Assembly: GCA_947456995.1 (NCBI GenBank)
Contig: CANGVB010000003.1
Location: 1-21,540, forward strand
Direction of reading: 5' to 3'
Length of the DNA: 21,540 bases
Source of the DNA: Bryobacteraceae bacterium
GTDB taxonomy: Bacteria; Acidobacteriota; Terriglobia; Bryobacterales; Bryobacteraceae
The position numbers were made by a program, and so were the translations under genes. Every line of letters starts with the position of its first letter. Positions within the stretch are counted from its first letter, which is position 1. Positions 1-19,699 of the stretch are shown here, piece after piece. Below the pieces are notes generated by a model that saw only the letters and a list, made by a program, of their open reading frames with translations, made no database searches and had not been told where the DNA came from.

Positions 1-19
1 TTCATGTTGATATCCAAAA

Positions 20-73
20 GGAGCGTTCTTCCTTTTGTACGTCTACAGGAAGAAAACGTTCCACATTTTTTTT
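20..73 (+). terminator. Intrinsic terminator-like hairpin of a gene left of the window
   Basis: Positions 20-32 pair with 48-62 in 13 base pairs, including one G-U pair and a 2-nt bulge (53-54). Inside, 36-39 (TGTA) pairs with 44-47 (TACA) around a 4-nt loop. Three bases after the stem comes a run of eight T (66-73). This is the layout of a rho-independent terminator on the plus strand, so a plus-strand gene probably ends just left of the window. An alternative 8-bp stem (15-22 with 30-37) could compete with it. Confidence 0.6.
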
Positions 74-79
74 GTGAGA

Positions 80-85
80 TACGCT
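80..85 (+). promoter_or_regulatory. -10 box of a likely leaderless promoter for the FG-GAP gene
   Basis: TACGCT lies exactly 7 nt before the ATG at 93, so transcription would begin at or next to the start codon. There is no purine-rich ribosome binding site before the ATG, and an in-frame stop at 75-77 rules out an earlier start. No convincing -35 box is visible. The same spacing recurs at three other genes in the window. Confidence 0.45.
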
Positions 86-92
86 AGACACG

Positions 93-1202
93 ATGAATGT
101 CTTCGTTCTTTTGCTGATGGCCCAAAACTTTGAGCCGACCATACTCGCCACCGATCTTCGCGGAGGCTATCAGGTGCTGGCTGTAGACCTGAATCAGGAT
201 GGACGACAGGATCTGATCGGGCTGGCCCAGGGAATGACGCATCTCGACTGGTTTGAGAATCCTGGCGCGGCGGGTAAAGAGTGGAAGCGTCACGTACTGG
301 CCTCAGGCCTGAACCAGCCGATCAATGTCGCGGCGATGGATATTGACGCGGACGGGATCCCGGAATTGCTGCTGGTTCATGAGTTTTCGAGCACACCAGC
401 GAAATCAAAAGGTACCGTTTCATTGCTGACGCATAACGGAGATCCTGCTCAGCCCTGGAGCAGAAAAGACATCGATGCGATCCCGACTTCGCATCGCATC
501 AAGATTGCCAATGGGGCCTTTATCAATGCACCCCTTTCAGACCCCAAGACGGCGCCGCCTGAGTATCTTGGCAAGATTCCGCTTACAGCCTATCCGGGCA
601 AGACGTTGAAGCCGACCCTACTTAACGACGAAGATTCAGGAGTGATGCACGGGCTGCACGTCGATGACTTTAATGGCGACGGGCGAATGGATATCCTGAC
701 CGCGAGCTTTAAGGGCATCGCTTTGCTTGAGGCGCAGAAGGATGGCAGCTACAAGCGGCGTTTGCTGCATGCCGGGAATGAGCAGCCGTGGCCGAAGTCT
801 GGATCAAGCGATGTGACTGTTGCGCGTGCTGATGGCAAGAAGTTTCTGGCGACGATTGATCCCTGGCACGGTCATGAGTTTGTGATCTACACGCCAAAAA
901 GCAAAGGCTACGAGCGTAAGGTGATGGAGTCGAAACTGGATCAAGGACACACGGTGCTGGCCGTGGATCTGGATGGCGATGGGAATGATGAGGTGGTGTA
1001 TGGGTCTCGCATGGGCGCAGTGACACTGCGCTACGTGCGTTATGACAAGAAAACGAAGGAGTGGAAAATCATCCCGATTCTGGACGGAAAGATCGCAACC
1101 AGTTCTTGCGTGACGGCCGACTTTAATGCGGATCGCCGGCCAGACCTGGCCTGTATCGGCGGGACGACACAGAACCTGATGATTTTCGAGAATCGCCCCT
1201 AG
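93..1202 (+). CDS. Secreted FG-GAP/VCBS-repeat beta-propeller protein
   Basis: The 369-residue protein has several calcium-loop motifs typical of FG-GAP/VCBS blades: D32-D40, D83-G88, D192-D200, D292-E300 and a degenerate one at D343-D351. Such proteins fold as beta-propellers and are usually extracellular or periplasmic. The N-terminus is a very short hydrophobic stretch without a positive charge (residues 1-10, ending in MA before Q11), probably a minimal signal peptide. The middle, roughly 100-190, lacks the motif and may be an insertion. Related bacterial propellers include some resembling the propeller of aldos-2-ulose dehydratase, but no enzyme activity can be claimed here. The gene converges on the transglutaminase gene and its TAG stop directly abuts that gene's stop. 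Confidence 0.85.
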   Translation: MNVFVLLLMAQNFEPTILATDLRGGYQVLAVDLNQDGRQDLIGLAQGMTHLDWFENPGAAGKEWKRHVLASGLNQPINVAAMDIDADGIPELLLVHEFSSTPAKSKGTVSLLTHNGDPAQPWSRKDIDAIPTSHRIKIANGAFINAPLSDPKTAPPEYLGKIPLTAYPGKTLKPTLLNDEDSGVMHGLHVDDFNGDGRMDILTASFKGIALLEAQKDGSYKRRLLHAGNEQPWPKSGSSDVTVARADGKKFLATIDPWHGHEFVIYTPKSKGYERKVMESKLDQGHTVLAVDLDGDGNDEVVYGSRMGAVTLRYVRYDKKTKEWKIIPILDGKIATSSCVTADFNADRRPDLACIGGTTQNLMIFENRP

Positions 1203-2180
1203 CTATTGCTGTTGCTGTTGTTGCTGCTGTTGGGCCAAAGCGTCGTCGATGGTAGCGATACGCTCGCCGAAGACGGGCGGATTGGCGTTGAAGAGAAGCT
1301 CCTTGGTGGGGTCTTCGAGCGTAGGAGCCTCAGACTTCGTGACCCGCACCAGAACATCCAGATCGCTCTGCGCGCCGCCGCGGAAGGTTCCTCGCGTGGG
1401 AGGAACGTCGGAGTAATCTCGACCCAGCGCAGTGCGGATATGACGTTCTCCCGCAATCAAGTTATTTGTAGGATCGACGCCAACCCAACCGAGCCCGGGA
1501 AGCATGGCTTCTACCCAGGCGTGAGATGCGCCATCAACCGATCGATCCTGATTCTTCTTGCTGTGAAAAAGATAACCAGAGACGTAGCGGGCCGGAATTC
1601 TGAGGCCTCTAAGAAGGGCGATCATGATGTGGGCAAAATCCTGGCAGACGCCTTTGCGGTCTTGAAGAGCGTGATCGATTGGCGAGTTTACCTGGGTATG
1701 TTTGGGGACATAGTCAAAGGTCTTGAAAATGGCCTGATTCAACTCAAGCAGCAGCGAGAGAGGATCTTCGCGACGGGTAACATTGAGATCTTTTGCGAGG
1801 GCCTCGAGCAGTTCGGTGGGCTCGGTAAAGTCACTGGGCATCAGGAATTCCCAATAGTCTTCACACGAAAGAATGCGGTCTAGTTCTTCCCACGCATGAA
1901 CCGGAAGAAAACCAGGTAACTGATTGGGCTCAAAGGTTTCCACTGTAGCCTCAGTGGTAATCAGTAACTGGGTGTGTTTGGGCGCAACGCTGAAGTGATG
2001 AACGTAGTTGCCAAGGTGATCGCGATACTGGAGCACCCTTGCCTTCGGGTTGACCTTGACGAAGTAGCTCAAGCAACGCTGGCTGCCTTCGCTGCGGGGC
2101 TGCATGCGCAATTCCATGATGCTTTCGCTGACTGGCGAATCATAACGAAAGCGAGTTTGGTGTTGGATCGAATAGTACAT
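1203..2180 (-). CDS. Transglutaminase-like protein with bacterial transglutaminase N-terminal domain and nona-glutamine tail
   Basis: The protein has 325 residues. Residues 1-80 match the bacterial transglutaminase-like N-terminal region (YxxxHxTRFRYDSPVS...). Residues 140-240 hold a papain-like transglutaminase core with the full triad: C179 in KGVCQDFAH, H220 in ASHAWVE and D236 in GVDPTNN. There is no signal peptide, so it is probably cytoplasmic. Members occur with alpha-E and circularly permuted ATP-grasp proteins and are thought to hydrolyse or transfer amide bonds; the substrate is unknown. The start ATG overlaps the alpha-E stop (TAATG), so translation is probably coupled. After the catalytic core comes a tail of about 85 residues ending in nine glutamines (317-325), which I do not recall as part of the family. 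It is the last gene of the five-gene operon. Confidence 0.93.
   Translation of the reverse strand: MYYSIQHQTRFRYDSPVSESIMELRMQPRSEGSQRCLSYFVKVNPKARVLQYRDHLGNYVHHFSVAPKHTQLLITTEATVETFEPNQLPGFLPVHAWEELDRILSCEDYWEFLMPSDFTEPTELLEALAKDLNVTRREDPLSLLLELNQAIFKTFDYVPKHTQVNSPIDHALQDRKGVCQDFAHIMIALLRGLRIPARYVSGYLFHSKKNQDRSVDGASHAWVEAMLPGLGWVGVDPTNNLIAGERHIRTALGRDYSDVPPTRGTFRGGAQSDLDVLVRVTKSEAPTLEDPTKELLFNANPPVFGERIATIDDALAQQQQQQQQQ
1206..1232 (-). repeat. CAA/CAG tract encoding a C-terminal nona-glutamine
   Basis: Nine consecutive glutamine codons, read on the minus strand as five CAA and four CAG in mixed order, run up to the TAG stop at 1203-1205. The mixed order means this is not a pure triplet microsatellite. 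Confidence 0.95.
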
Positions 2181-3127
2181 TAGGCGCTCAGTGAAGTCTC
2201 GATCGGATAGTCAATATAGGCTTGGTGGATTGCCGAATGCATTTGAGCGCATTGGCGGATTACGTTGTCCAGCGATAAGTGCAAGCCACTGGAGAGTATT
2301 TCTTCGACGCTGGAATAAAGCAGCGTGGCCGCGAGGCGTCCTGCCAGGCGCTCTACTTTGCCACGCTCACCGCGCGAGGACATTTCAGGCAAAGCCGATA
2401 TCGATTCTTCCAGGCGTCTGACGCTGAAAAGGATCGAATGCGGGTGCTGTGGATTGAGCAGGAGAAACTCGACGATGTTGTCTGCTGAAAACTCGGCAGT
2501 GTTCTTCTTGAGATAGGCTTCAAAGGCATTGCAACTGCGAAGGAGCGCAAGGAGTTCGAGGTGCTCGATGTCGGCTTCGCCGCAGAGTTCGGCGGCATGA
2601 ACTTTGAGCAGTGTTGCGGTGTTAGCAGCCCGTTCAATGTGACGGCCGATTTGGAGGAACCACCATTCTTCACCGTGCGACATGGTCGCGTCGGTTTCGC
2701 CTTTGAAGAGGCTGATGTTCCGCCTTACTTCATTCAGGAATTCGAGAGGCAATTGCTGCTCGAGGTCATCGGCGTCGTAACGTTTGACGAAGTGATAGAG
2801 AGCGTTGAGTTCGCTCCACATTTCACTCGAAATTTGTTCGCGCACCTGACGGGCGTTTTCTCGCGCATTCATCACGCAACTGATGATGGAGGTCTTAACG
2901 CGGGGATCGAAAATCAACGCATGTTCAAGGGCAGGCACGCTGAGCTTTCCCTCAAGCTTCAAGGGCTCGCCCAGGCTCAGGTTGATGCGACGAAGTTGCC
3001 GCTCAACGGCCTGAGGCTTCTGTTCGAGCATCAACTGGATATTGGCATCGAGCAAACGAGTGGTGTGCTCGGCACGCTCCAGGTAGCGCGCCATCCAGTA
3101 CAAACTATCGGCAACTCGAGATAACAT
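2180..3127 (-). CDS. Alpha-E domain protein (COG2307-like)
   Basis: The 315-residue, mostly helical protein begins with the family signature LSRVADSLYWMARYLERAE, followed by TTRLLDANI. The length is normal for a single-domain alpha-E protein. Alpha-E proteins are a poorly understood helical family that almost always travels with circularly permuted ATP-grasp and transglutaminase-like proteins, and it is presumed to act with them in making or modifying a peptide. No catalytic residues can be assigned. The ATG is 10 nt after the ATP-grasp stop, with a GGGGA-type ribosome binding site at the end of that gene, and the TAA stop overlaps the next start by one base. No signal peptide or membrane segment is visible. 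Confidence 0.93.
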   Translation of the reverse strand: MLSRVADSLYWMARYLERAEHTTRLLDANIQLMLEQKPQAVERQLRRINLSLGEPLKLEGKLSVPALEHALIFDPRVKTSIISCVMNARENARQVREQISSEMWSELNALYHFVKRYDADDLEQQLPLEFLNEVRRNISLFKGETDATMSHGEEWWFLQIGRHIERAANTATLLKVHAAELCGEADIEHLELLALLRSCNAFEAYLKKNTAEFSADNIVEFLLLNPQHPHSILFSVRRLEESISALPEMSSRGERGKVERLAGRLAATLLYSSVEEILSSGLHLSLDNVIRQCAQMHSAIHQAYIDYPIETSLSA

Positions 3128-3137
3128 ACCGGTTCCC

Positions 3138-4589
3138 CTAAGATTCGTCGACGACCCAAGTGTCCTTGCTGCCGCCTCCCTGTGAACTATTGACTACCAG
3201 CGAGCCCTTTCGCAGAGCAACTCTGGTGAGACCACCCGGCACGATGGTGATCTTGTCGCCGTACAAAATGTAAGGCCTGAGATCAACGTGTCGAGAGTCA
3301 AATTCGCCGTCAACAAAGCATGGAGCCCTGGACAGCATCAGCGTGGGCTGCCCGATGTAATTCCGCGGATCGGCCAGGATCTTCAAGCGGAATTCTTCGA
3401 TCTCAGCCTTCGAAGCATGGGGCCCGATCAACATGCCGTAGCCACCGCTCTCGCCCACGGCTTTGACTACCATCTTTTCGAGATTGTCGAGAACGTATTG
3501 CCGCGGGCCTTCTTCGGCAAGGATGTGGGTTTCGACGTTGGGGAGAATTGCGTCCTGCCCCAGATAGTATTTGATGATTTTGGGGACGTAGGCGTAGAGA
3601 GCCTTGTCGTCGGCAATGCCTGTGCCGATGGCGTTTGCGAGAGTAACGTTGCCGGCTCGATAGGCGTTAAAGAGACCGGGTACGCCGAGGATCGAATCGT
3701 GGCGGAAGGCAAGAGGGTCGATGAAGTCATCGTCGATACGGCGATAGATGACATCCACACGGGTGAGACCCGAGGTGGTGCGCATGTAGACGATGTTGTC
3801 GTGGACGATCAGATCGCGGCCTTCGACAAGTTCGATACCCATCTGGCGAGCGAGAAAGGTGTGTTCGAAGTAGGCGCTGTTGAATACGCCCGGGGTTAGC
3901 AGTACGATGTTGGGTTCATCGCGGCCTTCTGGCGCAAGCGCGTTGAGGCTTTGCAGCAAAGCTTGCGGATAGCCTTCGATTGGGAGCACTCCGCTCTGGC
4001 GGAAGACTTTCGGGAAGATACGCTTCATCACCTGGCGGCCGGTGAGCATGTAGCTTACGCCCGAAGGCACACGCAGATTGTCTTCGAGGACAGTGAAGTT
4101 GCCATCAAGATCGCGAATCAGGTCGGTACCTGTAACGGCGATATAAACGCCTTTGGGTACCTTGAGGCCGCGCATTTGGCGGCGGAAATATTTGCAGGTG
4201 TAGACGAGTTCGCGAGGGACGACGCCATCGTTGAGGATGCGCCCCCCGTGATAGATGTCCTGCAGAAACAGGTTGAGCGCGGTGATTCGCTGAGTAAGCC
4301 CTGCCTCTACGTGTTGCCACTCTTTGCGAGTGACGATGCGCGGAAGGAGGTCATGAGGGAAGATGCGCTCGGTGCCTTCCTCTTTGCCATACACCGTGAA
4401 GGTGATGCCCTGATTGAGGAAGATCAGGTCACTCTCCTGCTTGGCTCGTTTGAGCTCAGAGGCAGGAGAATCCTGGAGCATTTCAAAGAGAGGGGCATAA
4501 TGGGGCCGGACGGTGCCACTGGAATCGAACATCTCATCGAAGGCACCGGCCAGCTCATATTTTTCGAAAGGGGAACTGAGTTGTGACAA
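3138..4589 (-). CDS. Circularly permuted ATP-grasp protein (type 2, COG2308-like)
   Basis: The 483-residue protein shows the circularly permuted ATP-grasp pattern: [13 protein letters not shown] (168-180), RRIDDDF (283-289), [12 protein letters not shown] (313-324), [13 protein letters not shown] (374-386, nucleotide loop), DLRPY (436-440), PGGLTRVA (451-458) and [13 protein letters not shown] near the end. ATP-grasp enzymes activate a carboxylate as an acyl phosphate and join it to an amine or thiol; this branch is predicted to act as a peptide or amide ligase in the alpha-E/transglutaminase module. The start is TTG at 4589: an in-frame stop lies only four codons upstream and the first ATG (residue 20) would remove conserved sequence. 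The TTG follows the dipeptidase stop by 4 nt with a weak ribosome binding site, so it is probably translated by re-initiation. Cytoplasmic by sequence. Confidence 0.94.
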
Positions 4590-4593
4590 GGTT

Positions 4594-5829
4594 TTATCTC
4601 ATGGATGCGGAGACTTTTTCAACTTCTGAAAACACACGAATCAAATTTCCGTGATAGATCTTCGTGATCATCTGAGGAGTGTAGCCTCTTTCGAGCAAGG
4701 CACGAGTCAGGTTGGGAAATTTGCTGGTGTCTTCGAGACCTTCAGGAGTGCAACTGATACCGTCGAAATCGCTCCCAATGGCAACATGATCGATGCCAAC
4801 CAACTTGACGACGTGATCGATGTGATCGACGACATCTTTCAAGGTGGCTCGCGGGGTTTCACCTCGGTACTTTGCCATCATGGCGCGAAACTGCTTCATG
4901 GCTTCCTGCTGGTCTTTTACTTCAGCCATGATGCGTTCGCGTTCTTTAACAACTTCTGGACGGTTCATGGGGTTGGCGTCTTTAGCCTTCTGACTCAGGA
5001 AGTCGCAGGAAAAATTGATACCCATGATGCCACCCTTTTTTGCCAGAGCTTTGATCATGTCATCGGTGAGATTTCGGCCAGCGTCGCAGAGGATGCGGCA
5101 ACTGGAATGGCTGGCGATGATCGGGGCTTTGCTGGTTTCGATAACAGCCCAGAAGGCACCGTCAGAGATGTGCGAAACGTCGACCATCATTCCGATGCGG
5201 TTCATCTCGAGGACGATGGATTTGCCAAGATCGTTTAGGCCGCCCCAATGCTTGACCTTCGGGTTGTTGATGTCGCCGGAGGAATCGCACCAGTTGTTGG
5301 TGTTGGCCCAAGTGAGGGTCATGTAGCGGGTGCCGAGTTCGTAGAAGCGGCGTAGCAGGCGCACGTCGTCTTCGATAGCGTGGCCGCCTTCAATCCCGAT
5401 CAGAGCGCTCATCTTGCCGGCCTTTTTGTTGGCAAGGATATCAGCCGGGCTGTTTGCCCAATTGAACTGGGCAGCGTTCTTCTTCCAGATGTCCTCTTTG
5501 ATCGAGTCGATCAAACGTAGAGCCTGGTGGGCACTGGAGTTAGTGGTGACGTAATTGGTGGGAACGAATGCAGCAAACATTTGTCCGCCCATGCCACCTT
5601 CCTTCATGCGAATCGCGTCGGTGTGTTGACCAGCGCCACGGAGTGAGAAATCTTTGCCTGTAACCGTGATCATGGGCACATCGTTATGGAGATCGACAAG
5701 GTAGGCTTCCTTGTGGATTTTCATGACTTCGGCATCAGTCCAGGTCTTTTGGGGTTGAGTCTGGGAAAAGCAAAAGGAGCCCGCCAGCGCAAAGGCTGAC
5801 AGGCTCCTCGTTAGTGTTGAGAGCTTCAT
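4594..5829 (-). CDS. Membrane dipeptidase, peptidase family M19 (exported)
   Basis: The 411-residue protein has a signal peptide (hydrophobic 9-22, cleavage near FSQ). All M19 metal ligands are visible: H48 and D50 (DLHND), bridging E147 (GIEGGH), H220 (VDVSHISD), H241 (ASHSS) and the active-site aspartate in GSDFDG (about D354). GNLIRVF near the C-terminus is also typical. M19 enzymes are two-zinc renal-dipeptidase relatives that cleave dipeptides, often accepting a D-residue at the C-terminal position, and some cleave beta-lactams or acylated amino acids. The C20 context (GSFC) is not a proper lipobox, so I predict a periplasmic protein. It starts 8 nt after the receptor gene and ends 4 nt before the ATP-grasp gene. 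Its placement in this operon suggests it trims the substrate or product of the ligase module. Confidence 0.94.
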
Positions 5830-5837
5830 TCGATTGG

Positions 5838-8800
5838 TTACCAGATGAGCTTGAGAGCCAACTGAATGTTACGGGGTTCGCCCTGGCCGAGACCGGGAGC
5901 GCCAGAACCGTTGCGGGTGTTGGTAATGAGGCCAAAGCTGGTGGCAGCGTTGAAGCTGGTTCCAGGATTAGCGAAGTTCGCGCGGTTGAAGAGGTTGAAG
6001 ACTTCAACGCGGAATTCGGTTTTGATTCGTTCGGTGATTGCCGTGCGCTTCAGGATCGAGAAGTCGGTTGCGTTAAAACCGGGGCCACGCAGAGCGTTGC
6101 GTCCGATGTTACCGAAGGTGCCGATTGCAGGCAGCGCGAAGTTAGCAGCGCTAAAGTAGCGACGTGCGCCACCAGGAACGGTTGGTTCCTGAACGCCAAC
6201 GGCGGGAGAACCGATGACATCAACGCGGTCGCGATTGTCAAAGGAGTTAGAACGGTTCACGCCAGCAGTGATGTCGATGGGGGTACCGGTTGTCATCTGG
6301 AAGAGGCTTCCAAATTGCCAGCCCTGAGTGAGCGGCTTCATACGCTGTGTAAACTGAGGCACGTCGTATGCAACGTATCCGGTGAAGATGTGAGCGAGGT
6401 CGATCGCACCCGGACCGTATTCACGACGGAGGTCGTAGCTGTTGGCAGGCAGAACGTTACGAACGTCCGTACCGTTGTCCATCTGACGGCTCCAAGTGTA
6501 ATTGCCGTTTACCATCAAATTCTTCCAGCGAGTGACGCGGATCGAAGACTGCCAGGAGTGGTACTGGGAATTGGCGATCGATTCCAACATGTTGATGGCA
6601 GCAATGGTGGGATAGGCGGAGTTGAAAGGACGACGCGATTGCAGATCACCGGTAGTGCCGGGGATAGGAGCGTTGATGTTTCTCAGGAGGCTGAGCTTGC
6701 GGCCGGTGGAAGCAACATAACCAGTTTGGAAGATGGTTCCGTTACCGAGCTGCTGCTGAATGTTGAGGTTGTAATTCTGCACGTACGGCATGCGGAAGTC
6801 CTGGTTGATGCCATAAGCACCAAAGGGAGGACGGGGAGCAGCAGTACCGAAGATGGCCTGGCCGGCAACGATCTGAGTGGGAGCGCCAGTCAGGTTGATG
6901 TTGAAGACAGGCTCAGGACCACCAGGATTGGCATGGACGCCAGCGGCGCTGCCGTTACCGGGGCTGGTGTTGGCCACGATGAAGTTGAGCGGAGGAGTGT
7001 CATAGAACAAGCCCCAGCTGCCACGAACTACAGTCTTGCCGGAGCCGAAGGGCTGGTAGGCGAAACCGAAGCGCGGAGCAAAGTTATTGAAGTCGTTCGG
7101 GAAGAGACGTTCAATGTCCTTACCGGGAGTAACGAAACCGCGACCGGGAATGAAGTTGGTGATGGTCTTGTCTACGTCGTGAAGAATACCGTTGAAGGTA
7201 TAACGAACACCAAAGTTCAGGTTGAGTTTGCGGTTGACCTGGAAGTTATCGTGAATCCACCAGTCGATGCTGTTCTGGCGATAGTCACGCTGCAACTGGC
7301 CACGGGTAATGGAAGCGCCATTGTTGGATGTGGTGAGCATGGCAAGAAAATCGGCCATGCTGCGGTCTTGAGCAGGAACCGAAGTATCGGCGCGCCATGG
7401 GCCGGCTGAACCATCCCAAGTGAAGCTACCACGCTTGTTGGTGTCGTAGAAGACATCAAGGACAGCGCGGCGGTATTCACCACCAAACTTCATCTGATGA
7501 CGACCGACGGTGTAGCTGAGGTTGTCGGTGATGTGGCCTGTGGTGTCGATGCGACCGAGGGGTTGCGTGAAACCGGCACCGGCGAAATTGGTAATGCGAA
7601 GGGTGGGTGTACCAATCAGGCTGGCTTCGGTGACTCCGGTGTTGAAGCCAAGACCGACGGGATTGAAGCTGGTGTCCTTGTCGTTGAAAACCTGAAGGAA
7701 GTAGTTTGTACCGAGAATCAGGTTGTTGAACATACGGGGTGAGAGTGTGGAGTTGGCTACAACGCTAACGTTGTGCATGCGGCTGGGGGCAACCTGGAAG
7801 TATTCCTGATAGACGCCGCCAGAGGATGCAGATTGCTTGCCGGTGCCACCGTAGTAGCGGGTAGCGATGGAGTGCTTTTCGTTGATGTTGTAGTCGACCT
7901 TGACGATGCCGTTGTAGCTGTCGTAATCGTTCTGATCGCCAGCAACGAGGTTGTTGGCAGTGGCAGGAAGATTATTAAAGCGGCTGGGCCAGGCGGTGAG
8001 AACACGGGTTGCCAATGGGCTTTCCGGAATGTTGTAACGACGCAGGAGAGCGCGGCCCTGTTCGACGAAAGCAGTCGAAGGATGAGTGTCACGAAGGCTG
8101 ATGGCGGCGATGGCCTTCTGAGCTTCGCCCGTCATGAAGTAGAAGAGCTTGTTCTTGATGATTGGACCACCGAGGCTGAAACCGTACTGGTCGTTGCGCA
8201 CGACGCGCTTCTTGGAACCGGGAGCCTGGAAGGGGCTCAGCTCGGCGAGTGCTTCGCGACGGTTGAAGTAGTAGGCACTGCCATGCAGTTCATTGGTACC
8301 GCTCTTGATTACGAGGTTCACGTTGGAACCACCATTGCGGCCCTGTTCGGCGCTGGCATTGGTTGCGATTGCGAACTGGTCGATTGCTTCAACAGGAAGC
8401 AGCGTACCGGCGATACCAGCGACACCGCCCTGGTTTACGGCGGATGTGTTGTGGAATGCATCGTTGTTGTCGGCACCATCGATCTGATAGTTGTTGCCGG
8501 AGGTGCGCATGCCGTTGACGCTGTTGTTGAGAGGGTTCACGCCAGGAGCCATTTTGAGCATCTGACGGAAGTCGCGGCCGTTCATCGGCATTTCCTGCAC
8601 CATCTGAGGATTCACAACATTGGCCAGAGTGGTTGAGGAGGTTTCAATGGAAGCGGCAATAGCACTAATCTCAACGGTGGTTGCCTGACTCGAAACTGCA
8701 AGCTTTACCGGGAGATTGGTGACGCGGCTAACGGCCACTTCGACCTTGTCGACCTTTGTGGTCTGAAAGCCGGACTTGCTAAATGTGAGGGTATAAAAAC

Positions 8801-9026
8801 CCAGTGGCAAATCAGGGAAATTGAAATCCCCACTCGCGCTAGTAGTGCCTTCACGGGCGTAGCCGGTGGCATCATTGATCAACTTGACGGTGGTGTCAGG
8901 CACAGCAGCGCCCGAAGCATCCACTACACTACCGGAGACAGAACCCCGGAATGTTTGTCCGAAAACACTTGTTGCAAGCAGAAGCAACAAGGAAAGAAAA
9001 AGCGAAGACCTTTGAGGTACTTTCAC
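5838..9026 (-). CDS. Oar-like TonB-dependent receptor with carboxypeptidase-regulatory-like domain
   Basis: From the GTG at 9026 the product has 1062 residues. It has a signal peptide (basic start, then a leucine-rich core ending SVFGQ), a carboxypeptidase-regulatory-like beta-sandwich of about 90 residues (GSVSGSVVDASGAAVPD...), a plug with the MPMNGRDFRQMLKMAPGVNP and QIDGADNNDAF motifs, then a long beta-barrel ending in an aromatic residue (LALKLIW). Such outer-membrane receptors are abundant in Acidobacteria and import or bind large substrates, with energy from TonB. A longer reading from an ATG at 9089 would place 21 unlikely residues before the signal peptide; the GTG has AAGGGG six bases upstream. 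It is the first gene of the operon and probably takes up the substrate handled by the dipeptidase and ligase module. Confidence 0.93.
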   Translation of the reverse strand: MKVPQRSSLFLSLLLLLATSVFGQTFRGSVSGSVVDASGAAVPDTTVKLINDATGYAREGTTSASGDFNFPDLPLGFYTLTFSKSGFQTTKVDKVEVAVSRVTNLPVKLAVSSQATTVEISAIAASIETSSTTLANVVNPQMVQEMPMNGRDFRQMLKMAPGVNPLNNSVNGMRTSGNNYQIDGADNNDAFHNTSAVNQGGVAGIAGTLLPVEAIDQFAIATNASAEQGRNGGSNVNLVIKSGTNELHGSAYYFNRREALAELSPFQAPGSKKRVVRNDQYGFSLGGPIIKNKLFYFMTGEAQKAIAAISLRDTHPSTAFVEQGRALLRRYNIPESPLATRVLTAWPSRFNNLPATANNLVAGDQNDYDSYNGIVKVDYNINEKHSIATRYYGGTGKQSASSGGVYQEYFQVAPSRMHNVSVVANSTLSPRMFNNLILGTNYFLQVFNDKDTSFNPVGLGFNTGVTEASLIGTPTLRITNFAGAGFTQPLGRIDTTGHITDNLSYTVGRHQMKFGGEYRRAVLDVFYDTNKRGSFTWDGSAGPWRADTSVPAQDRSMADFLAMLTTSNNGASITRGQLQRDYRQNSIDWWIHDNFQVNRKLNLNFGVRYTFNGILHDVDKTITNFIPGRGFVTPGKDIERLFPNDFNNFAPRFGFAYQPFGSGKTVVRGSWGLFYDTPPLNFIVANTSPGNGSAAGVHANPGGPEPVFNINLTGAPTQIVAGQAIFGTAAPRPPFGAYGINQDFRMPYVQNYNLNIQQQLGNGTIFQTGYVASTGRKLSLLRNINAPIPGTTGDLQSRRPFNSAYPTIAAINMLESIANSQYHSWQSSIRVTRWKNLMVNGNYTWSRQMDNGTDVRNVLPANSYDLRREYGPGAIDLAHIFTGYVAYDVPQFTQRMKPLTQGWQFGSLFQMTTGTPIDITAGVNRSNSFDNRDRVDVIGSPAVGVQEPTVPGGARRYFSAANFALPAIGTFGNIGRNALRGPGFNATDFSILKRTAITERIKTEFRVEVFNLFNRANFANPGTSFNAATSFGLITNTRNGSGAPGLGQGEPRNIQLALKLIW

Positions 9027-9091
9027 GTAAAACCCCTTGAAACAGTTGAATTTTTGATTTTGCCAGAGCAGAACGGGGCTCTTGAGCATAC
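9027..9091. promoter_or_regulatory. Divergent intergenic region between the receptor operon and the P450 gene
   Basis: These 65 bases must hold, or lie next to, the promoters of both the minus-strand operon and the plus-strand P450 gene. A weak -10-like TATGCT reads on the minus strand at 9090-9085, without a good -35. No clear operator palindrome is seen. Confidence 0.4.
9033..9038 (-). promoter_or_regulatory. Shine-Dalgarno site that fixes the receptor start
   Basis: AAGGGG on the minus strand lies six bases (TTTTAC) before the GTG at 9026-9024. It is the best ribosome binding site in the operon and argues for the GTG over the upstream ATG at 9089. Confidence 0.7.
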
Positions 9092-10453
9092 TTGGATTAC
9101 GGAAAGGTTAACACTTCTGCAGCAAAGACTCAAATTGAGTCTTTTGATAAGTCTAATCATCTCTTTGATTTGGGCCTGCCAAATCCCTTTCAGCTCCTGT
9201 CTGATCCGATAGCGTTTTTCCGTGCCGCAGCTGAGGCGCAAGGGCCTGTTGCGCGTATTCAATTTGGAAGTCGCGAGTTTGTGCTGCTCAACGATCCAAA
9301 AATCATTGAAGAGCTGTTCATTCACTATCCTTCGAGCTTTGAGAAATTTCCGCGGATCAATCGCACGCGTGGGCTCTTCGGCGAAGGGTTGCTGACCAGC
9401 GAAGAACCCCTGCACCTGAAACAGCGCCGGCTCGCGCAGCCAGCCTTTCATCGAGATCGGTTGTCTGACTATGCCGGGGAGATGGTTGCCGCAACCACGA
9501 GATTGACTGGCGGATGGAAAGCTGGTGAAACCATCAATGCGGCTCACGACATGGGAAATCTGGCGCTGGATATCGTGTCTCGAACTCTCTTTTCACAGCA
9601 AACAGATTCGCAGGCAGAACAAATCAGCGCGGCACTGGATGAAGTTGTCAAGACACTGAACCACCTGGTAACGCCGTGGGGGAACCTACTGCTCAGTATT
9701 CCTTCTCCTTTGAGAAATCGTTATCGCACGGCTCTGAAGGAACTGGATGCCATCATCTATGGCTTCATCGCAGAACGCAGGATGTCTGCTGTTGAACACA
9801 CAGACTTACTGTCGATGCTGATGAACGCCAAAGACCCGGACACCGGAATGGGGATGCCCGATCTGCAACTACGCGACGAATTGATGACCATTTTCGTGGC
9901 GGGTCATGACACTACTGCAAATGCTCTCGCGTGGACGCTCTATTTGCTCTCGCAGCACCCGCAAGAGCGCAAGCTGATGGAAGAAGAAATTGACGACGTT
10001 CTGCAGGGCCGGCCGGCTCAAATGCAGGACGCCGCCAGGTTGCCTCGCACCGTTGCCATTTTTCGGGAATCTCTTCGGATGTATCCGCCGGTCTGGATCC
10101 TGGGTCGTAGAGCGCTCAAGCCCGTCGAGACGCCTTTGATTCAATTGCGGCGTGGGGCAATTGTGCTGGTATCGATGGCTGTACTCCACCGGCGCCCGGA
10201 GCTTTTCGAGAACGCAGATTCTTTTGTACCGGGGCGGAATGAGCCAAAAGACAGATACGCTTTTCTGCCGTTTGGACTTGGATCGCGGCTCTGCATCGGC
10301 GAGAGGTTCGCCTGGCTTGAAGGAGTGCTTTGTCTTGCAACGATATGCCAAAAATGGCGACTGGATCTGGCACCAGACGCAAAGGTAGAACCACAGCCAC
10401 TGCTGACTTTGCGCCCCCGCTATGGATTGCCGATGACGCCCACACTAAGATAG
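9092..10453 (+). CDS. Cytochrome P450
   Basis: The 453-residue protein has all P450 landmarks: the I-helix oxygen-activation motif AGHDTTA (270-276), the K-helix ExxR (E326-R329 in FRESLRMYPP), and the heme loop FGLGSRLCIG (394-403) with C401 as thiolate ligand. It starts close to the LPNPFQLLSDP proline-rich entry and has no membrane anchor, so it is a soluble class-I type that needs separate ferredoxin and reductase partners; none is encoded here. The substrate cannot be read from the sequence; medium-chain fatty acid-type bacterial P450s look similar. The start is TTG at 9092: a stop at 9083-9085 closes the frame upstream and no ATG follows before the conserved core. The ribosome binding site is weak. 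Confidence 0.93.
   Translation: MDYGKVNTSAAKTQIESFDKSNHLFDLGLPNPFQLLSDPIAFFRAAAEAQGPVARIQFGSREFVLLNDPKIIEELFIHYPSSFEKFPRINRTRGLFGEGLLTSEEPLHLKQRRLAQPAFHRDRLSDYAGEMVAATTRLTGGWKAGETINAAHDMGNLALDIVSRTLFSQQTDSQAEQISAALDEVVKTLNHLVTPWGNLLLSIPSPLRNRYRTALKELDAIIYGFIAERRMSAVEHTDLLSMLMNAKDPDTGMGMPDLQLRDELMTIFVAGHDTTANALAWTLYLLSQHPQERKLMEEEIDDVLQGRPAQMQDAARLPRTVAIFRESLRMYPPVWILGRRALKPVETPLIQLRRGAIVLVSMAVLHRRPELFENADSFVPGRNEPKDRYAFLPFGLGSRLCIGERFAWLEGVLCLATICQKWRLDLAPDAKVEPQPLLTLRPRYGLPMTPTLR
10446..10451 (+). promoter_or_regulatory. -10 box of a likely leaderless promoter at the end of the P450 gene
   Basis: TAAGAT lies exactly 7 nt before the ATG at 10459 and overlaps the first base of the P450 stop codon. 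The GAGGG at 10453-10457 is too close to the ATG to be a good ribosome binding site. The downstream gene may thus have its own leaderless transcript as well as read-through from the P450 gene. Confidence 0.4.
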
Positions 10454-12563: not shown

Positions 12564-12610
12564 ATAGGGAAGAGTGCAGCGAAGCTATCTTTCGCTACAC
12601 TCTTCCCTAT
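12564..12610. repeat. 20-bp inverted repeat ending on the deacylase start codon
   Basis: Bases 12564-12583 pair with 12591-12610 (19 of 20 pairs, one A-C mismatch at 12577/12597) around a 7-nt loop. The right arm covers the first two bases of the ATG at 12609. It has no T run directly after it, so it is a poor intrinsic terminator in the plus direction. It may be a terminator-like element behind the small protein gene, a hairpin that hides the start codon, or a repressor operator. Confidence 0.85.
12596..12601 (+). promoter_or_regulatory. -10 box of a likely leaderless promoter for the double deacylase
   Basis: TACACT lies exactly 7 nt before the ATG at 12609, inside the right arm of the inverted repeat. 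If used, the mRNA would start at the ATG and the hairpin would act on DNA, or on read-through RNA only. Confidence 0.4.
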
Positions 12611-15600
12611 GCGTAGTTCCTTCCTCTTTCTGTTGGTTGCGGCGCTGGGAGCTCAATCCCCGCAACTGGACTTGATCATTACCAACGCGCGTATCGTGGA
12701 TGGTTCGGGTGCGCCCTGGTATTACGGAGATCTGGCAGTGAGCAAGGATAGAATTGCTCGGATCACACCGCGCGGGATGCTGGCTTCGACCCCTGCCGTG
12801 AAGAAGATCGATGGCCAGGGAACGCTCGTGCTATCGCCTGGCTTCATTGACATTCAGTCTCATTCGCGAGACGCTCTGCTGAACGGCGATGGGCGGGTCA
12901 TCAGCAAAGTCTCCCAGGGCATTACTACCGAGATCATGGGCGAGGGCTCCTCGAATGCGCCGGCCAGTGCGAAGTCTGAGACTGAAGCGGATCGTCAGTT
13001 CATTGGCCCCCATGGCTTCGCGCGCTGGCTTGATGCGATGAAGAAGCATGGCTCCAGTGTGAACTTTGGCTCCTACGTCGGACAGGGTACGATACGGGCC
13101 TATGCCAAAGGGATGGCCGCAGGCAAAGCCACTCCAGCAGAACTGGAAAGCATGAAGGCCGCCATGAAGGAAGCGATGGAAGACGGGGCATTTGGTCTGG
13201 CCAGCGCTTTGATCTACCCGCCTGGCTCTTACTCGGATACCGAAGAGATTGTAGAAGTAGCGAAAGTGATGGCACCGTTCGGTGGAACCTACATCACTCA
13301 TATGCGGTCTGAGGCGGATGATGTCTTCCCTGCTCTCGAAGAAGCGATCCGGATTGGTAAAGAAGCCAAGGTGCCGGTGGAGCTTTACCATTTGAAAGTG
13401 GCTGGGCGAAAGAACTGGCCGAAGTCGGCTGAGTTTCTCGCGACGATCAACAATGCAAGGGCGCAAGGCGTTGATCTGCAGGCGAACATGTATCCATATA
13501 CAGCAGGCTCGACCGGGCTGACCTCTTGCCTTCCCCCCTGGGCTGCGGAGAATGGGAAGCTTTACGAAAACATTGCGAGCCCCGCGATTCGCGAGAAGAT
13601 GCGTGCCGAGATGTTGTCGGATCGAACAAGCTGGGAGAATTTGTGCGGGGCTGGGACGCCAGAAGGCGTGCTGGTGCTTGGCCTTCTGAAGCCAGAGAAC
13701 AAGATTTACGCAGGCAAATACCTGAGCGAAATTGCTGCGATGAAGGGGAAGCCCTGGACCGAGACTGTATTTGAATTGCTGGAATCCGAGCGGCAGCGCA
13801 TCGGGACGGTCTACTTCATGATGAGCGACGAAAACGTCGAGGCTAAGATGAAGCAGCCCTGGATGAAGTTCGGCACCGATGCTGGCGCTGCCGATCCAGA
13901 CAAGGCAACGAGCCTAGTGCATCCACGAAGCTACGGTACAGCGACTCAGATCCTTGGCCATTACGTGCGTGAGCGCAAAGTAATGACGCTCGAAGAAGCA
14001 GTTCGAAAATTGAGCTCGGCTACTGCGCTTCGATTGGGAATCATGGATCGTGGTCTGCTGAAGCCAGGACTTAAGGCAGACATGGTTTTGTTTGATGCAG
14101 CAACTGTTGGTAGCCCTGCAACTTACACGAAACCACATCAGGTTTCTACAGGCATACACTCGGTTATTGTCAACGGGGCTCTTGTCTGGCAGGGTGGCAA
14201 GCACACGGGGGCGATGCCTGGTGAAATCGTGCGCGGGCCGGGCTATGGCAAGTATTCCACGACCGCCTATGACCTTATCTATAGAAACGCGAAGATCATC
14301 GACGGCACCGGTGCCGGCTGGTACTCGGGCGATCTTGCGGTGAAGGATGGCAAGATTGCGGCAATCACTCCTGCGGGGCTGCTGCGAGCGGCCACGGCCA
14401 AGCAATCATTCGACCTGAAAGGCCAGGCTCTCACCCCAGGCTTCATCGATATCCAGTCGCATTCGCGAGATGCATTGACCAATGGTGATGGCCGTCTGAT
14501 CTCAAAGATCACCCAAGGGATCACCAGCGAGATTATGGGAGAGGGTTGGTCTAACGCTCCGGCCAACGAGAAGACGGGGGATCAGGCTGACAAGAACTTT
14601 ACGGGCCCGCATTCTTTTGACCGCTGGCTCAAGGCAATGCAGGCGCGTGGATCTTCGGCAAACTTCGGTTCCTTCGTCGGTGCAGGTACGATCCGCGCCT
14701 TTGGTAAAGGATTTGCGATGGGCGATCCAACAGCCGCCGAACTTAATGTGATGCGGGGAGCATTAAAGGAATCGATGCAGGACGGGGCATTTGGTCTTGC
14801 ATCGGCATTAATTTATCCACCGGGATCTTATGCAACCACGTCGGAATTGACTGAACTTGCCAAAACCATTTCGGGCTTTGGGGGCACCTATATTTCTCAC
14901 ATTCGCTCTGAGGCAGACAAACTGCTTCCAGCTCTCGAGGAAGCCACCTCGATCGGCAAGAATGGATCGGTGCCTGTAGAGATTTACCACCTTAAGGCAG
15001 TGGGCCGGAAGAACTGGAAGCTGCTCGATCCTGCACTGCAATTAATCGAGAAGGCGCGTGTAGACGGCATCGACATCCAGGCCAACATGTACCCGTATGT
15101 GGCATCAGGCACCACGCTCACTGCATTGCTGCCTGACTGGGCAGCAGCCGACGGCAAGCTATATGCAAACCTCGATAACCCCGAAACTCGTACGCGGATT
15201 ATCGCAGACATGCTCAAAGACAACAAAGGTCGAGACGCGGATCTGGTGCAGCCAATTGGCTTACGCAAGCCCGAGAACAAGAAGTACATCGGCCAGCGGC
15301 TTCATAAAATTGCCGAAGCAATGAATCTTGACTGGCCAGAAGCGGCAATCGCATTGTTGCGTTCTGAGCGGCAAGGGATTTCGACAATCTACTACATCAT
15401 CAACGAAACCAACATCGAGAAGCAGTTGAAGATGCCGTGGATCAAGATCTCAACCGATGCTGGAGGCAGCAATCCGGCTGTGGCAAATGGGCCGACGCAT
15501 CCTCGCGGCTATGGCACCTACCCACGAGTACTTGGACTCTACGCGAGAGAGCTGAAAACAATCCCGCTCGAAGATGCAGTATTCAAAATGACGGCCGCTG

Positions 15601-15842
15601 TGGCAACACGTTTATCGCTTCACAATCGCGGCATCCTGCGCCCGGGCATGGCGGCAGATCTGGTGGTCTTTGACCCGGCAACCATTCGTGACCAGGCCAA
15701 CTTTGAAAACCCGCACCAACTTTCAACAGGCATCAAACAAGTTGTCGTGAATGGAGTGGTTGTTGTAAATGATGGAGTCCATACCGGTGCCAAGCCTGGG
15801 GTGATCCTCAGAGGTCCGGGCTACCAGCAGCCCGCTAACTGA
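12609..15842 (+). CDS. Fused double N-acyl-D-amino-acid deacylase-like amidohydrolase
   Basis: The 1077-residue protein has a signal peptide (1-16, ending LGAQ) and two full amidohydrolase units, residues 20-545 and 553-1071. Each begins DLIxxNAxIxDGxGxxWYxGDLAV and ends with the amidohydrolase beta-sandwich. Single D-aminoacylase-family enzymes have about 500-550 residues, so this is an in-frame tandem fusion. Conserved residues in copy 1/copy 2 are H85/H618, E112/E645, H231/H764 (THMRSEAD, SHIRSEAD), H261/H794 (YHLK) and D424/D950 (TDAG). The first histidine of the usual HxH is glutamine in both (Q83, Q616), and the position of the bridging cysteine of D-aminoacylase is glutamate in both. 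Family members remove acyl groups from N-acyl-D-amino acids or cut related amides. The product is probably periplasmic; the substrate is unknown. Confidence 0.92.
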   Translation: MRSSFLFLLVAALGAQSPQLDLIITNARIVDGSGAPWYYGDLAVSKDRIARITPRGMLASTPAVKKIDGQGTLVLSPGFIDIQSHSRDALLNGDGRVISKVSQGITTEIMGEGSSNAPASAKSETEADRQFIGPHGFARWLDAMKKHGSSVNFGSYVGQGTIRAYAKGMAAGKATPAELESMKAAMKEAMEDGAFGLASALIYPPGSYSDTEEIVEVAKVMAPFGGTYITHMRSEADDVFPALEEAIRIGKEAKVPVELYHLKVAGRKNWPKSAEFLATINNARAQGVDLQANMYPYTAGSTGLTSCLPPWAAENGKLYENIASPAIREKMRAEMLSDRTSWENLCGAGTPEGVLVLGLLKPENKIYAGKYLSEIAAMKGKPWTETVFELLESERQRIGTVYFMMSDENVEAKMKQPWMKFGTDAGAADPDKATSLVHPRSYGTATQILGHYVRERKVMTLEEAVRKLSSATALRLGIMDRGLLKPGLKADMVLFDAATVGSPATYTKPHQVSTGIHSVIVNGALVWQGGKHTGAMPGEIVRGPGYGKYSTTAYDLIYRNAKIIDGTGAGWYSGDLAVKDGKIAAITPAGLLRAATAKQSFDLKGQALTPGFIDIQSHSRDALTNGDGRLISKITQGITSEIMGEGWSNAPANEKTGDQADKNFTGPHSFDRWLKAMQARGSSANFGSFVGAGTIRAFGKGFAMGDPTAAELNVMRGALKESMQDGAFGLASALIYPPGSYATTSELTELAKTISGFGGTYISHIRSEADKLLPALEEATSIGKNGSVPVEIYHLKAVGRKNWKLLDPALQLIEKARVDGIDIQANMYPYVASGTTLTALLPDWAAADGKLYANLDNPETRTRIIADMLKDNKGRDADLVQPIGLRKPENKKYIGQRLHKIAEAMNLDWPEAAIALLRSERQGISTIYYIINETNIEKQLKMPWIKISTDAGGSNPAVANGPTHPRGYGTYPRVLGLYARELKTIPLEDAVFKMTAAVATRLSLHNRGILRPGMAADLVVFDPATIRDQANFENPHQLSTGIKQVVVNGVVVVNDGVHTGAKPGVILRGPGYQQPAN
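12666..15821 (+). repeat. Tandem gene-internal duplication of the deacylase unit
   Basis: Copy 1 covers about 12666-14243 and copy 2 about 14265-15821, offset by 533 codons (1599 bp). The two are similar over their whole length at protein level and still share short DNA identities, for example around 13189 and 14779. Synonymous positions have diverged, so the duplication is not recent. Confidence 0.9.
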
Positions 15843-17896: not shown

Positions 17897-17925
17897 ATTT
17901 AACTTTTCTACCGCAACATGATTGA

Positions 17926-17969
17926 TTGCTCCTTTGGATCTCGCCTTACGGTTAGATCCAAAGGAGCAA
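17926..17969 (+). promoter_or_regulatory. Perfect 16-bp hairpin covering the next gene's ribosome binding site
   Basis: Bases 17926-17941 are the exact reverse complement of 17954-17969, with a 12-nt loop that can itself form a few pairs. The right arm contains AAAGGAG (17960-17966), the only ribosome binding site before the ATG at 17978. There is no T run after the stem. It may end phosphatase transcription, control translation of the next gene, or both. Confidence 0.85.
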
Positions 17970-17977
17970 AACTATTT

Positions 17978-18415
17978 ATGTCAAAGATTCACGATGTCGG
18001 GGCTGGAGTAAAAATGTATAACGTGTCTCATGCTGTCGGCGAGGGGATGCCTAATTCTAAAGACGATGTCCTGTTGGTGCAGTGGATGCTGAAGGTCCAC
18101 TTCAACCGCGCTGACAAAAAGGCGATGCTGGGCCAGGTCTGGAAGATGGAGACACTCACCGGAACCTGCACGCAGGAACTGATCGAAATCATCAAGATCT
18201 ATCAGTACGACGCCAACCTGAACATTCGCGGCGCAAGGCTAAAGCTGGATGGCAAGATCTACCCGATTCAAGTTTGCCCCGGGCTCAATCAGTCCCCGCT
18301 GGCACTGCTCAACCTGAGCGTTGCCGGACATTCCAAGTTCTATAAAGCACCATCCAAAGATCCCTCACTCTATAGTGAAGCGCGAACGATGTTTGAGCGC
18401 TGCGGCACGGTCTAG
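17978..18415 (+). CDS. Small protein of unknown function, weak peptidoglycan-binding-like pattern
   Basis: The 145-residue protein has no signal peptide or membrane segment. Residues 25-95 loosely follow the peptidoglycan-binding type 1 pattern: DDVLLVQWMLK, a middle segment ending LTGTCTQELIEIIKIYQ, then LKLDGKIYP. The match is by eye only, and the usual glycines are partly missing. The C-terminal 50 residues are not recognised. I chose the ATG at 17978 because AAGGAG lies 11 nt upstream and the alternative ATG at 17918 would translate straight through the perfect hairpin. The gene is followed after 30 nt by the DUF4384-like lipoprotein gene on the same strand. A role linked to the cell wall is a guess. 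Confidence 0.65.
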   Translation: MSKIHDVGAGVKMYNVSHAVGEGMPNSKDDVLLVQWMLKVHFNRADKKAMLGQVWKMETLTGTCTQELIEIIKIYQYDANLNIRGARLKLDGKIYPIQVCPGLNQSPLALLNLSVAGHSKFYKAPSKDPSLYSEARTMFERCGTV

Positions 18416-18430
18416 TGCCGCCCCCTGCGT

Positions 18431-18436
18431 TATATT
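18431..18436 (+). promoter_or_regulatory. Possible -10 box before the lipoprotein gene
   Basis: TATATT lies 9 nt before the GTG at 18446, so the mRNA leader would be at most a few bases. No -35 box is obvious. Confidence 0.35.
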
Positions 18437-18445
18437 CGTAGGGCC

Positions 18446-18985
18446 GTGAGGATATCGAAGGCCCTATTTGTAGTGATCTTTATTTCAGCGTTGTTGAGCT
18501 CCTGTACAGAGCCTCGTGATGCGTTTTCGATTACACTGCTTCGACAGAAGACGAGCGCTGGGAAAAATCTGGGGTCTCAGGAAACGGTGTCCGTGGGTAC
18601 GACCTTTCGCAAGAATGAGCTGGTAGCGATGAAGGTTCAAATTCCGAAGACCGGGTTCTTCTATGCCTTCCAGGCCGATGATCAGGGGACCTTCGATGTA
18701 CTTTATCCGCAAGCTTCGGGAAGTCCTGTTGTGCCATCCGGCAAAGCTTTGCGATTGCCAGTAGAAGAGGAACTCTGGCTCGGCTTCATCAGCTCTTCTG
18801 TAACTCTGGCCTGGAGCCCGCAGCGGATCGAAAGTCTGGAACTTGCCATTGACCGCAGCGAGGTAGAGAAAGACAGCATTCGAGCCATCCGCGACCCCGA
18901 GGATGCGAAGAAACTCGATGAAGAACTCACCCGCCTGCTCAAAAGCAACTTAAGCGTCAAGCGTATTGAGTTGAATGTAGATTAG
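18446..18985 (+). CDS. Lipoprotein with DUF4384-like domain
   Basis: The 179-residue product begins at GTG, with a lipoprotein signal (hydrophobic 6-17, lipobox LSSC with C20). Residues about 50-130 resemble a DUF4384 beta-sandwich: NELVAMKVQIPKTGFFYAFQ, DVLYPQ, LRLPVEEEL and TLAWSP. The same segment is clearly similar to residues 423-497 of the CHAT protein encoded at 19700 (GHLYAFATSGGEIEVLYPR, RLPAEREL, TIIWSPLPLDSLEDAI). The C-terminal 40 residues are a charged helix. DUF4384 domains are typically extracytoplasmic and often attached to caspase-like or kinase signalling proteins; their ligand is unknown. The stop overlaps that of the convergent SH3-like gene by 4 bp. Confidence 0.8.
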   Translation: MRISKALFVVIFISALLSSCTEPRDAFSITLLRQKTSAGKNLGSQETVSVGTTFRKNELVAMKVQIPKTGFFYAFQADDQGTFDVLYPQASGSPVVPSGKALRLPVEEELWLGFISSSVTLAWSPQRIESLELAIDRSEVEKDSIRAIRDPEDAKKLDEELTRLLKSNLSVKRIELNVD

Positions 18986-19614: not shown

Positions 19615-19617
19615 CTG

Positions 19618-19627
19618 ACACTAGTGT
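19618..19627. repeat. 10-bp perfect palindrome in the divergent region
   Basis: ACACTAGTGT is a perfect palindrome located 3 nt upstream of the minus-strand ATG at 19614 and 72 nt before the CHAT start. It may be a repressor site for the SH3-like gene; a palindrome of this length can also occur by chance. Confidence 0.5.
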
Positions 19628-19673
19628 GCCACCCAATTTGAAATCTCAATGAGCGATTCATGTGGTGATCGGG

Positions 19674-19679
19674 TAAGAT
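19674..19679 (+). promoter_or_regulatory. Possible -10 box for the CHAT gene
   Basis: TAAGAT lies 20 nt before the ATG at 19700, which would give a leader of about 13 nt. No good -35 box and no clear ribosome binding site are seen. Confidence 0.3.
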
Positions 19680-19699
19680 GAGTGCTCAAGTGACACCAG

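Follow-up and report, generated by a model that had tools for sequence, protein, structure and literature searches.

A conserved glutamine tract in the ATP-grasp/alpha-E/transglutaminase module and its receptor-dipeptidase front end in Bryobacter

The window analysed here is a whole stretch of 21,540 nucleotides (nt) on contig CANGVB010000003.1, from a Bryobacteraceae draft genome (4.0 Mb, 79 % complete, 634 contigs) whose nearest named relatives, in a scan of genome contigs with its ATP-grasp protein, are Bryobacter records. Five consecutive minus-strand genes span positions 1203-9026 and are separated, in the open reading frame (ORF) calls, by gaps of 8, 4, 10 and -1 nt. They encode, in order of transcription, an outer-membrane receptor, an M19 dipeptidase, a circularly permuted ATP-grasp protein, an alpha-E protein and a transglutaminase-like protein (Table 1). 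A first-pass annotation of this DNA had described the same five same-strand genes, spacing and families, and the ORF calls and Pfam matches above cut-off for all five bear this out. The last three genes, consecutive on one strand and all above curated cut-offs, constitute a known type of module, whose transglutaminase here terminates in nine glutamines (Q9). This C-terminal tract, which the annotation did not mention, and the receptor and dipeptidase that precede the module, are the subjects of this work.

The receptor, here called Oar-like, resembles the TonB-dependent receptors of that type in joining a CarboxypepD_reg domain to a beta-barrel (OMP_b-brl_4; both above the Pfam cut-off), but it gives no Pfam match to the plug domain PF07715 at E 1e-3 and is one of dozens of paralogues. 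Its longest ORF begins at an ATG at 9089, and a GTG at 9026 fits the signal peptide by inspection. The M19 protein lies directly upstream of the module and carries a signal peptide by inspection, in agreement with its earlier description as exported. As in the M19 membrane dipeptidases (3id7, a Streptomyces dipeptidase, and human renal dipeptidase), the metal-ligand positions H, D, E, H and H are conserved, and residues 38-411 align with 3id7. With both the domain and the metal ligands of its family, the protein is predicted to hydrolyse dipeptides. The ATP-grasp protein (CP_ATPgrasp_2/1 domains, above cut-off) is a relative of the solved structure 3n6x, whereas for the alpha-E protein a comparison with solved structures finds none that is related in sequence at E 0.01. 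No proteasome-fold (Anbu) match occurs among the 15 window proteins scanned, as the annotation had noted, and PF00227 has none in the window's own incomplete genome. Each of seven other genomes of the genus has one PF00227 match, of 170 residues, a length that fits HslV; it lies either at a great distance from the module or on a different contig. Judged by ratios of nonsynonymous to synonymous substitution rates (dN/dS) of 0.01-0.04 against the genus locus L004, all five genes look to be under purifying selection.

Table 1. Features of the five-gene locus and its upstream flank, in window coordinates
Feature	Position	Strand	Remarks
Nine glutamine codons, mixed CAA/CAG	1206..1232	-	directly before the TAG stop of the transglutaminase gene
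Transglutaminase-like protein	1203..2180	-	Bact_transglu_N and Transglut_core above cut-off
Alpha-E protein	2180..3127	-	PF04168, 292 bits
Circularly permuted ATP-grasp protein	3138..4589	-	TTG start; PF14403, 551 bits
Exported M19 dipeptidase	4594..5829	-	Peptidase_M19 above cut-off
15-bp stem-loop, then TTTTGCTTTT	5774..5809	-	28 nt after the receptor stop
Oar-like outer-membrane beta-barrel receptor	5838..9026	-	PF25183, 592 bits; PF13620, 66 bits
Perfect 10-bp inverted repeat AAAGACTCAA-T-TTGAGTCTTT	9124..9144	.	between the divergent receptor and P450 genes

The scan of genome contigs with the ATP-grasp protein yielded 95 relatives, of which the best 80 loci were kept, 75 of them outside the genus. 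In tblastn searches with the window genes, ATP-grasp is followed by alpha-E and usually by a transglutaminase in Acidobacteriota, Chloroflexota and others, and by these matches the three-gene core is widespread. A terminal run of at least 3 Q closes 43 of the 54 transglutaminase ORFs scoring over 250 bits in this 80-locus survey. The other 11 comprise three cut by contig ends (L006, L051, L056), one ending in Q9A (L079) and seven with an earlier run or only QQ. Among 1,303 other ORF calls, only three end in a run of at least 3 Q, and all three are distant transglutaminases. Homologues were also sought in a database of 5.8 billion proteins. With the window protein as query, each of the 120 best of 7,968 homologues found has at least 5 Q within its last 8 residues; the C-terminus is Q-ended in 115 of the 120 best of 6,209 found for L069 (Candidatus Eremiobacterota) and in 106 of the 120 best of 7,644 found for L213 (alphaproteobacterial, with a proteasome-fold gene next door). 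Over the three sets 341 of 360 are Q-ended, with protein bodies containing only 3-4 % Q. Terminal runs vary from 0 to 11 Q among homologues, and in the alphaproteobacterial set a short QQ or QQQ stands immediately after the last core strand. Many of these sequences are related, so the tail counts are not independent.

A profile-based tally, which used ORFs found by hidden Markov models for the tail counts, covered 103 ATP-grasp rows and left out 20 without a transglutaminase within 2.5 kb and 3 cut by contig ends. It contained 74 three-gene modules with a complete transglutaminase, and 58 of these bear a run of at least 3 Q on that protein; 3 more have shorter Q-rich tails. A further 6 modules have no transglutaminase tail; in these it is the ATP-grasp protein that is extended at its C-terminus and carries a run of at least 3 Q there, with Q8-Q9 in four actinobacterial loci (L080-L083) and Q3 in two from Deinococcus. 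Transglutaminases encoded beside a fused ATP-grasp-alpha-E paralogue have the tail in 0 of 6 cases tested, and the genomes of these six loci also encode an unfused ATP-grasp. The Q tract tracks the three-gene type of module and recurs in several phyla. Its position is not always terminal: Q4 is followed by 12 residues in L025, L029 and L040, and the tracts of L050 and of the four actinobacterial ATP-grasp proteins are, like the Q9A of L079, also followed by other residues. Across the eight genus genomes searched, (CAR)6 plus a stop occurs once in each of five, at the transglutaminase, and nowhere else; the remaining three are G002, which is cut at the tail, G004, which ends in QA, and G006, which has no module.

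Two further observations concern the company that these transglutaminases keep. The Bryobacter loci L215, L216 and L218 encode ATP-grasp and alpha-E as one fused protein, in open frames of 846-908 amino acids, together with a tail-less transglutaminase, and no such fusion was found in the window's incomplete genome. A Pfam Proteasome match was obtained for 2 of 9 hand-picked upstream or neighbouring genes (L045 and L213). In L045 (Acidobacteriaceae), an Anbu-like gene at 9042-9854 of that locus lies 20 nt upstream of the ATP-grasp gene, and the transglutaminase ends in Q4.

The module itself is already known. An ATP-grasp/alpha-E/transglutaminase/Anbu operon is described in the available excerpts of PMC5666114 and PMC6376114, and its three core families and their order match those of the window, whereas the window is without Anbu and has the receptor and M19 genes in front. 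Those excerpts make no mention of a conserved Q tail, and the words 'glutamines' and 'polyglutamine' are absent from that of PMC6376114. The RimK/RimB and RloABC systems, in the excerpted part of PMC12239564, likewise encode an ATP-grasp with a peptidase, and Rlo resembles the window further in having a transglutaminase-fold protein. In Rlo, however, the transglutaminase is inactive and membrane-bound and is paired with an aspartic protease (PMC12239564, as excerpted), whereas the window transglutaminase has an intact triad and, by inspection, no evident membrane anchor, and the peptidase is M19. A search by title and abstract opening, mostly outside subscription journals, found no description of the Q tail or of the five-gene order among the papers listed, in keeping, as regards the five-gene combination, with the first-pass annotation, and a search at the same depth on mycobacterial module loci found no literature on module function. 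The conserved Q tract and the genus-specific front end thus appear to be undescribed.

The receptor and dipeptidase have a far narrower distribution than the core. In tblastn searches neither adjoins the module in any of the 75 non-genus loci, 71 of which have at least 900 nt of upstream sequence and four less than 300. Distant M19 genes, about 30 % identical, lie elsewhere in the stretches of L014 and L021, and receptor-like genes elsewhere in those of L008, L023 and L060. Within the genus, the module is present in 7 of 8 genomes; G006 (88 % complete, 1,080 contigs) gives no match to ATP-grasp, alpha-E, M19 or receptor. Directly upstream of the module, the receptor is found in 7 of 7 module-bearing genomes and M19 in 6 of 7, and a cut-off of E <= 1e-120 leaves a single receptor match in 7 of the 8. 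The two genes are a genus-specific front end of the module, seen in Bryobacter only, and the notion of the five genes as an ancient system was rejected because their adjacency is confined to this one genus.

The genome without M19 at the locus, G001 (locus L005), retains the receptor, the stem-loop and the core, and its best M19 match elsewhere reaches only E 6.9e-13. In a midpoint-rooted tree of ATP-grasp and alpha-E, G001 groups with the window pair inside the genus (support 66) and M19-bearing L007 branches first (support 79), so that loss of M19 in G001 is the simplest reading. The spacing between M19 and ATP-grasp is 4-5 nt in six diverged genus genomes. Since the first ORF calls were mechanical and some were antisense errors, the surroundings of M19 were rechecked by tblastn: 20 stretches with non-genus M19 homologues (40-53 % identical) contain no relative of ATP-grasp, alpha-E or transglutaminase, and a receptor relative occurs in 3 of them (L149, L158, L161), in none immediately beside M19. 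Homologues of the receptor outside the genus number four among 33 such genomes (G011, G010, G022 and G021; 61-43 % identical), and the stretches around them contain neither M19 nor module homologues.

The flanks of the block are less constant. Five other genus loci extend far enough to show the convergent FG-GAP gene: it adjoins the transglutaminase gene in three of them (L004, L007 and L165), lies 0.9 kb off in L005 and is absent from L079. Because this neighbour too is partly kept, synteny within the genus is by itself weak evidence for shared function. The divergent P450 gene is retained in L004, L005 and L007. Both flanking genes are gone from L079, where the five genes stay, and the P450 gene is gone from L165; this persistence despite changed flanks somewhat favours the five-gene block. 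Receptors of this family are also numerous, with 71 match rows, fragments included, in the window's genome. Twenty high-ranking paralogues whose C-termini do not lie close to a contig end were picked by hand, and for 11 of this non-random set the next ORF on the same strand begins no more than 30 nt downstream. Ten of these 11 ORFs, scanned with Pfam, belong to mixed families (fucosidase, lipase-like, acetyltransferase, TPR and others), so receptor-led gene strings are ordinary in this genome.

Between the receptor and M19 genes lies a stem-loop within M19 codons 7-19, such that, unlike in other M19 membrane dipeptidases, the signal-peptide codons double as an RNA stem-loop. It has the longest stem among the terminator-like sites of the region, and a T-rich tail. 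The six genus loci with M19 share the stem; in G001 it stands in the same place but is intergenic and is followed by TTAATTTT. The stem pattern occurs as a single copy in 7 of 8 genus genomes, always at this locus, and a dispersed repeat was rejected on that ground. Across the seven sequences 98.1 % of cells are paired, against 34-52 % in slid controls, and folding z-scores in six loci range from -3.9 to -7.1. Two stem pairs are changed on both sides, and the two-sided-change cells and the covariation score surpass all 500 column shuffles. Two measures count against the stem-loop: the number of two-sided pairs (2) is reached by 220 of the 500 shuffles, and terminator-like sites over 1-9400 number 11 against 10.1 in shuffles, which is not above expectation. 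Synonymous recoding of the stem codons reached 15 pairs in 0 of 100,000 trials, so the stem appears to be selected as nucleic acid rather than as protein, and its origin as a by-product of the signal-peptide sequence was rejected. What speaks for the stem-loop is the length of its stem, its conservation, and the outcomes of the slid control and of recoding.

By inspection, the window, L004 and L005 have good U-runs after the stem, and L007, L165, L079 and L006 weaker ones. A stable G+C-rich stem and a U run together are terminator-like in the window and L005, where they are a predicted intrinsic terminator. Given the weaker U-runs elsewhere, the stem-loop may not terminate transcription in every genome and may instead serve to trim the receptor mRNA or to protect it. 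Three of the four non-genus receptor homologues have a 3' hairpin of their own after the stop. Such hairpins were rejected as a general rule for receptor paralogues, since a stem of at least 13 bp is present in only 4 of 20 sampled. At this locus, a hairpin-ended receptor gene would have come to precede the module, with the M19 frame now crossing that hairpin, and the five genes may not be one simple unit.

These results bear on the proposal of the first-pass annotation that receptor, dipeptidase and module form one co-transcribed pathway of peptide import, trimming and ligation. The operon-like spacing on which it was based stands, purifying selection is apparent on all five genes, and 6 of 7 genus genomes keep the gene order, which survives even in L079 and L165, where one or both flanks have changed. 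The expected adjacency in related genomes is kept inside the genus but is lacking in all 75 loci beyond it. The loss of M19 from G001, which kept the core, the terminator-like stem-loop separating receptor from M19, and the abundance of receptor-led gene strings in the window's genome weaken the proposal further, and we regard a single pathway as rather doubtful. The account that we rate highest for these genes, if still somewhat short of even odds, is that receptor and M19 are only neighbours sharing a promoter region, the module acting alone as it does elsewhere. It accords with the 75 modules that do without them, and with the four non-genus receptor homologues that stand apart from both M19 and module, three of which end in their own hairpin; the close and constant M19-ATP-grasp spacing in six diverged genomes suggests, to the contrary, translational coupling.

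Upstream of the receptor, the inverted repeat is the same in the window, L004 and L005 and has no exact match in L007, L079 or L165; it is a likely operator for a regulator. The cytochrome P450 gene beyond it (9092-10453, plus strand), divergent to the receptor, has among its closest NCBIfam models pentalenene oxygenase and albaflavenone monooxygenase, at scores far below cut-off. Farther along, a 1,077-amino-acid protein (12609-15842, plus strand) contains two Amidohydro_3 stretches, suggesting a tandem enzyme. At 17918-21382, small genes with weak matches to DUF4384 and SH3_4, both below cut-off, adjoin a CHAT-domain gene, and together these are a possible caspase-like module.

The chemistry of the transglutaminase offers a reading of the tract. 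C179, H220 and D236 are invariant in 54 aligned transglutaminases and form an intact Cys-His-Asp triad. An AlphaFold2 model has a mean predicted local distance difference test (pLDDT) score of 90.5, with 54-56 in the tail, and the tail is probably flexible. We tentatively predict that the tail is a built-in acyl donor, a role that we hold to be possible rather than probable. A side-chain amide of the tract would be attacked, with release of ammonia, by C179, either within one molecule or from a neighbouring one. An amine would then resolve the thioester; it could be, for instance, an amino acid or peptide that the ATP-grasp/alpha-E pair makes or presents. The transglutaminase itself would become a carrier or a conjugated protein. 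Since the tract can be internal or on the ATP-grasp protein, side-chain amides are a likelier target than the terminal carboxylate.

The likely setting of this chemistry would be nitrogen scavenging or amide recycling, because the module is induced by nitrogen limitation in other bacteria. Excerpts of the relevant papers report that P. putida PP_2685 and PP_2688 are up by 4.4 and 4.0 log2 on nitrate versus ammonium (PMC8050072), that in B. cenocepacia the cluster belongs to the NtrC/sigma-54 regulon (PMC5491218), that Anbu is expressed under nitrogen limitation (cited in PMC5666114), and that in marine metagenomes the module families and urea-metabolism domains co-vary (PMC3597751). Peptides as a nitrogen supply would be consistent with the presence of a receptor and a dipeptidase. 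They would be a genus-specific, peptide-supplying front end, expressed partly separately because the stem-loop would limit or trim read-through.

Several observations weigh against a built-in acyl donor serving nitrogen economy. No module transglutaminase is known to us to act on glutamine. Seven of the 74 three-gene modules have neither kind of tail, lacking both a transglutaminase run of at least 2 Q and an ATP-grasp run of at least 3 Q (L061, L222-L226, L231; L225 ends in one Q and L231 has alternating Q), and the transglutaminases of the four actinobacterial and two Deinococcus modules are themselves without one. The transglutaminase of L067, beside an apparently fused paralogue, nevertheless ends in Q5. 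Many alphaproteobacterial tails have only 1-3 Q, which offers little substrate and fits docking equally well. The cysteine motif is missing in 2 of the 360 homologues (P0032 and P0209). Nitrogen regulation is known from Pseudomonadota, not Bryobacter, and in six genus loci the region upstream of the receptor, searched with a simple pattern, shows no sigma-54-like site. P0032 is of interest in its own right: it has the Q tail with glycine in place of the active-site cysteine, and is possibly an inactive tailed form or a sequencing error.

The main rival, close behind the acyl donor, is that the tail is a docking peptide held in a groove of ATP-grasp, alpha-E or Anbu and chemically unchanged. 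Such a role, which we consider unlikely though by a modest measure, would suit the short, conserved QQ or QQQ of the alphaproteobacterial set, placed where the last core strand ends, and the low-confidence tail of the AlphaFold2 model. Docking motifs, however, are rarely homopolymers of such variable length, and the range of 0 to 11 terminal Q counts against docking, as do tracts that are internal or borne by the ATP-grasp protein. Precedent cuts both ways in the excerpted PMC6376114: the C-terminal tails of HslU dock onto HslV, a proteasome relative, yet co-expression of the Yersinia Anbu operon gave no specific Anbu complex, with a transglutaminase that was C-terminally FLAG-tagged. That tag would cap the tail, if the Yersinia protein has one.

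A less probable alternative places the chemistry at the terminal alpha-carboxylate, with the tail as a primer to which the ATP-grasp protein adds amino acids, as RimK does on RpsF. The RimK precedent (PMC12239564), the activation of carboxylates by ATP-grasp ligases and the release of phosphate from ATP by the Yersinia ATP-grasp protein (PMC6376114), all from excerpts, are in its favour, and so is the predominance of Q-ended homologues in the three best-120 sets. The residues that follow the tract in L025, L029, L040, L050, L079 and the four actinobacterial ATP-grasp proteins speak against a primer, which we think improbable. Neutral slippage in a codon repeat would account for a homopolymer of variable length. 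It sits poorly with tail codons that are mixed (222 CAG, 120 CAA), with survival of the tail through large synonymous divergence, and with a tract that, in the searched genomes of the genus, no other protein has, yet that is common to several phyla; we give slippage very little credence.

The boldest reading would be of a self-conjugating amide module, in which the Q tract, on the transglutaminase in several phyla or on the ATP-grasp protein as seen in Actinomycetota, would serve as acyl donor when nitrogen is short, linked in Bryobacter to a receptor and dipeptidase by way of the stem-loop. We put the probability of this whole at roughly 0.28. Whatever its function, a stem-loop within signal-peptide codons is a clean case of dual coding and a caution against inferring one operon from tight gene spacing. 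The Q run may be the first clue to the role of the ATP-grasp/alpha-E/transglutaminase trio, and it provides a concrete handle on module function, as a tail that can be deleted, tagged and read by mass spectrometry. If the acyl-donor reading is true, the transglutaminase would be catalyst and tag at once.

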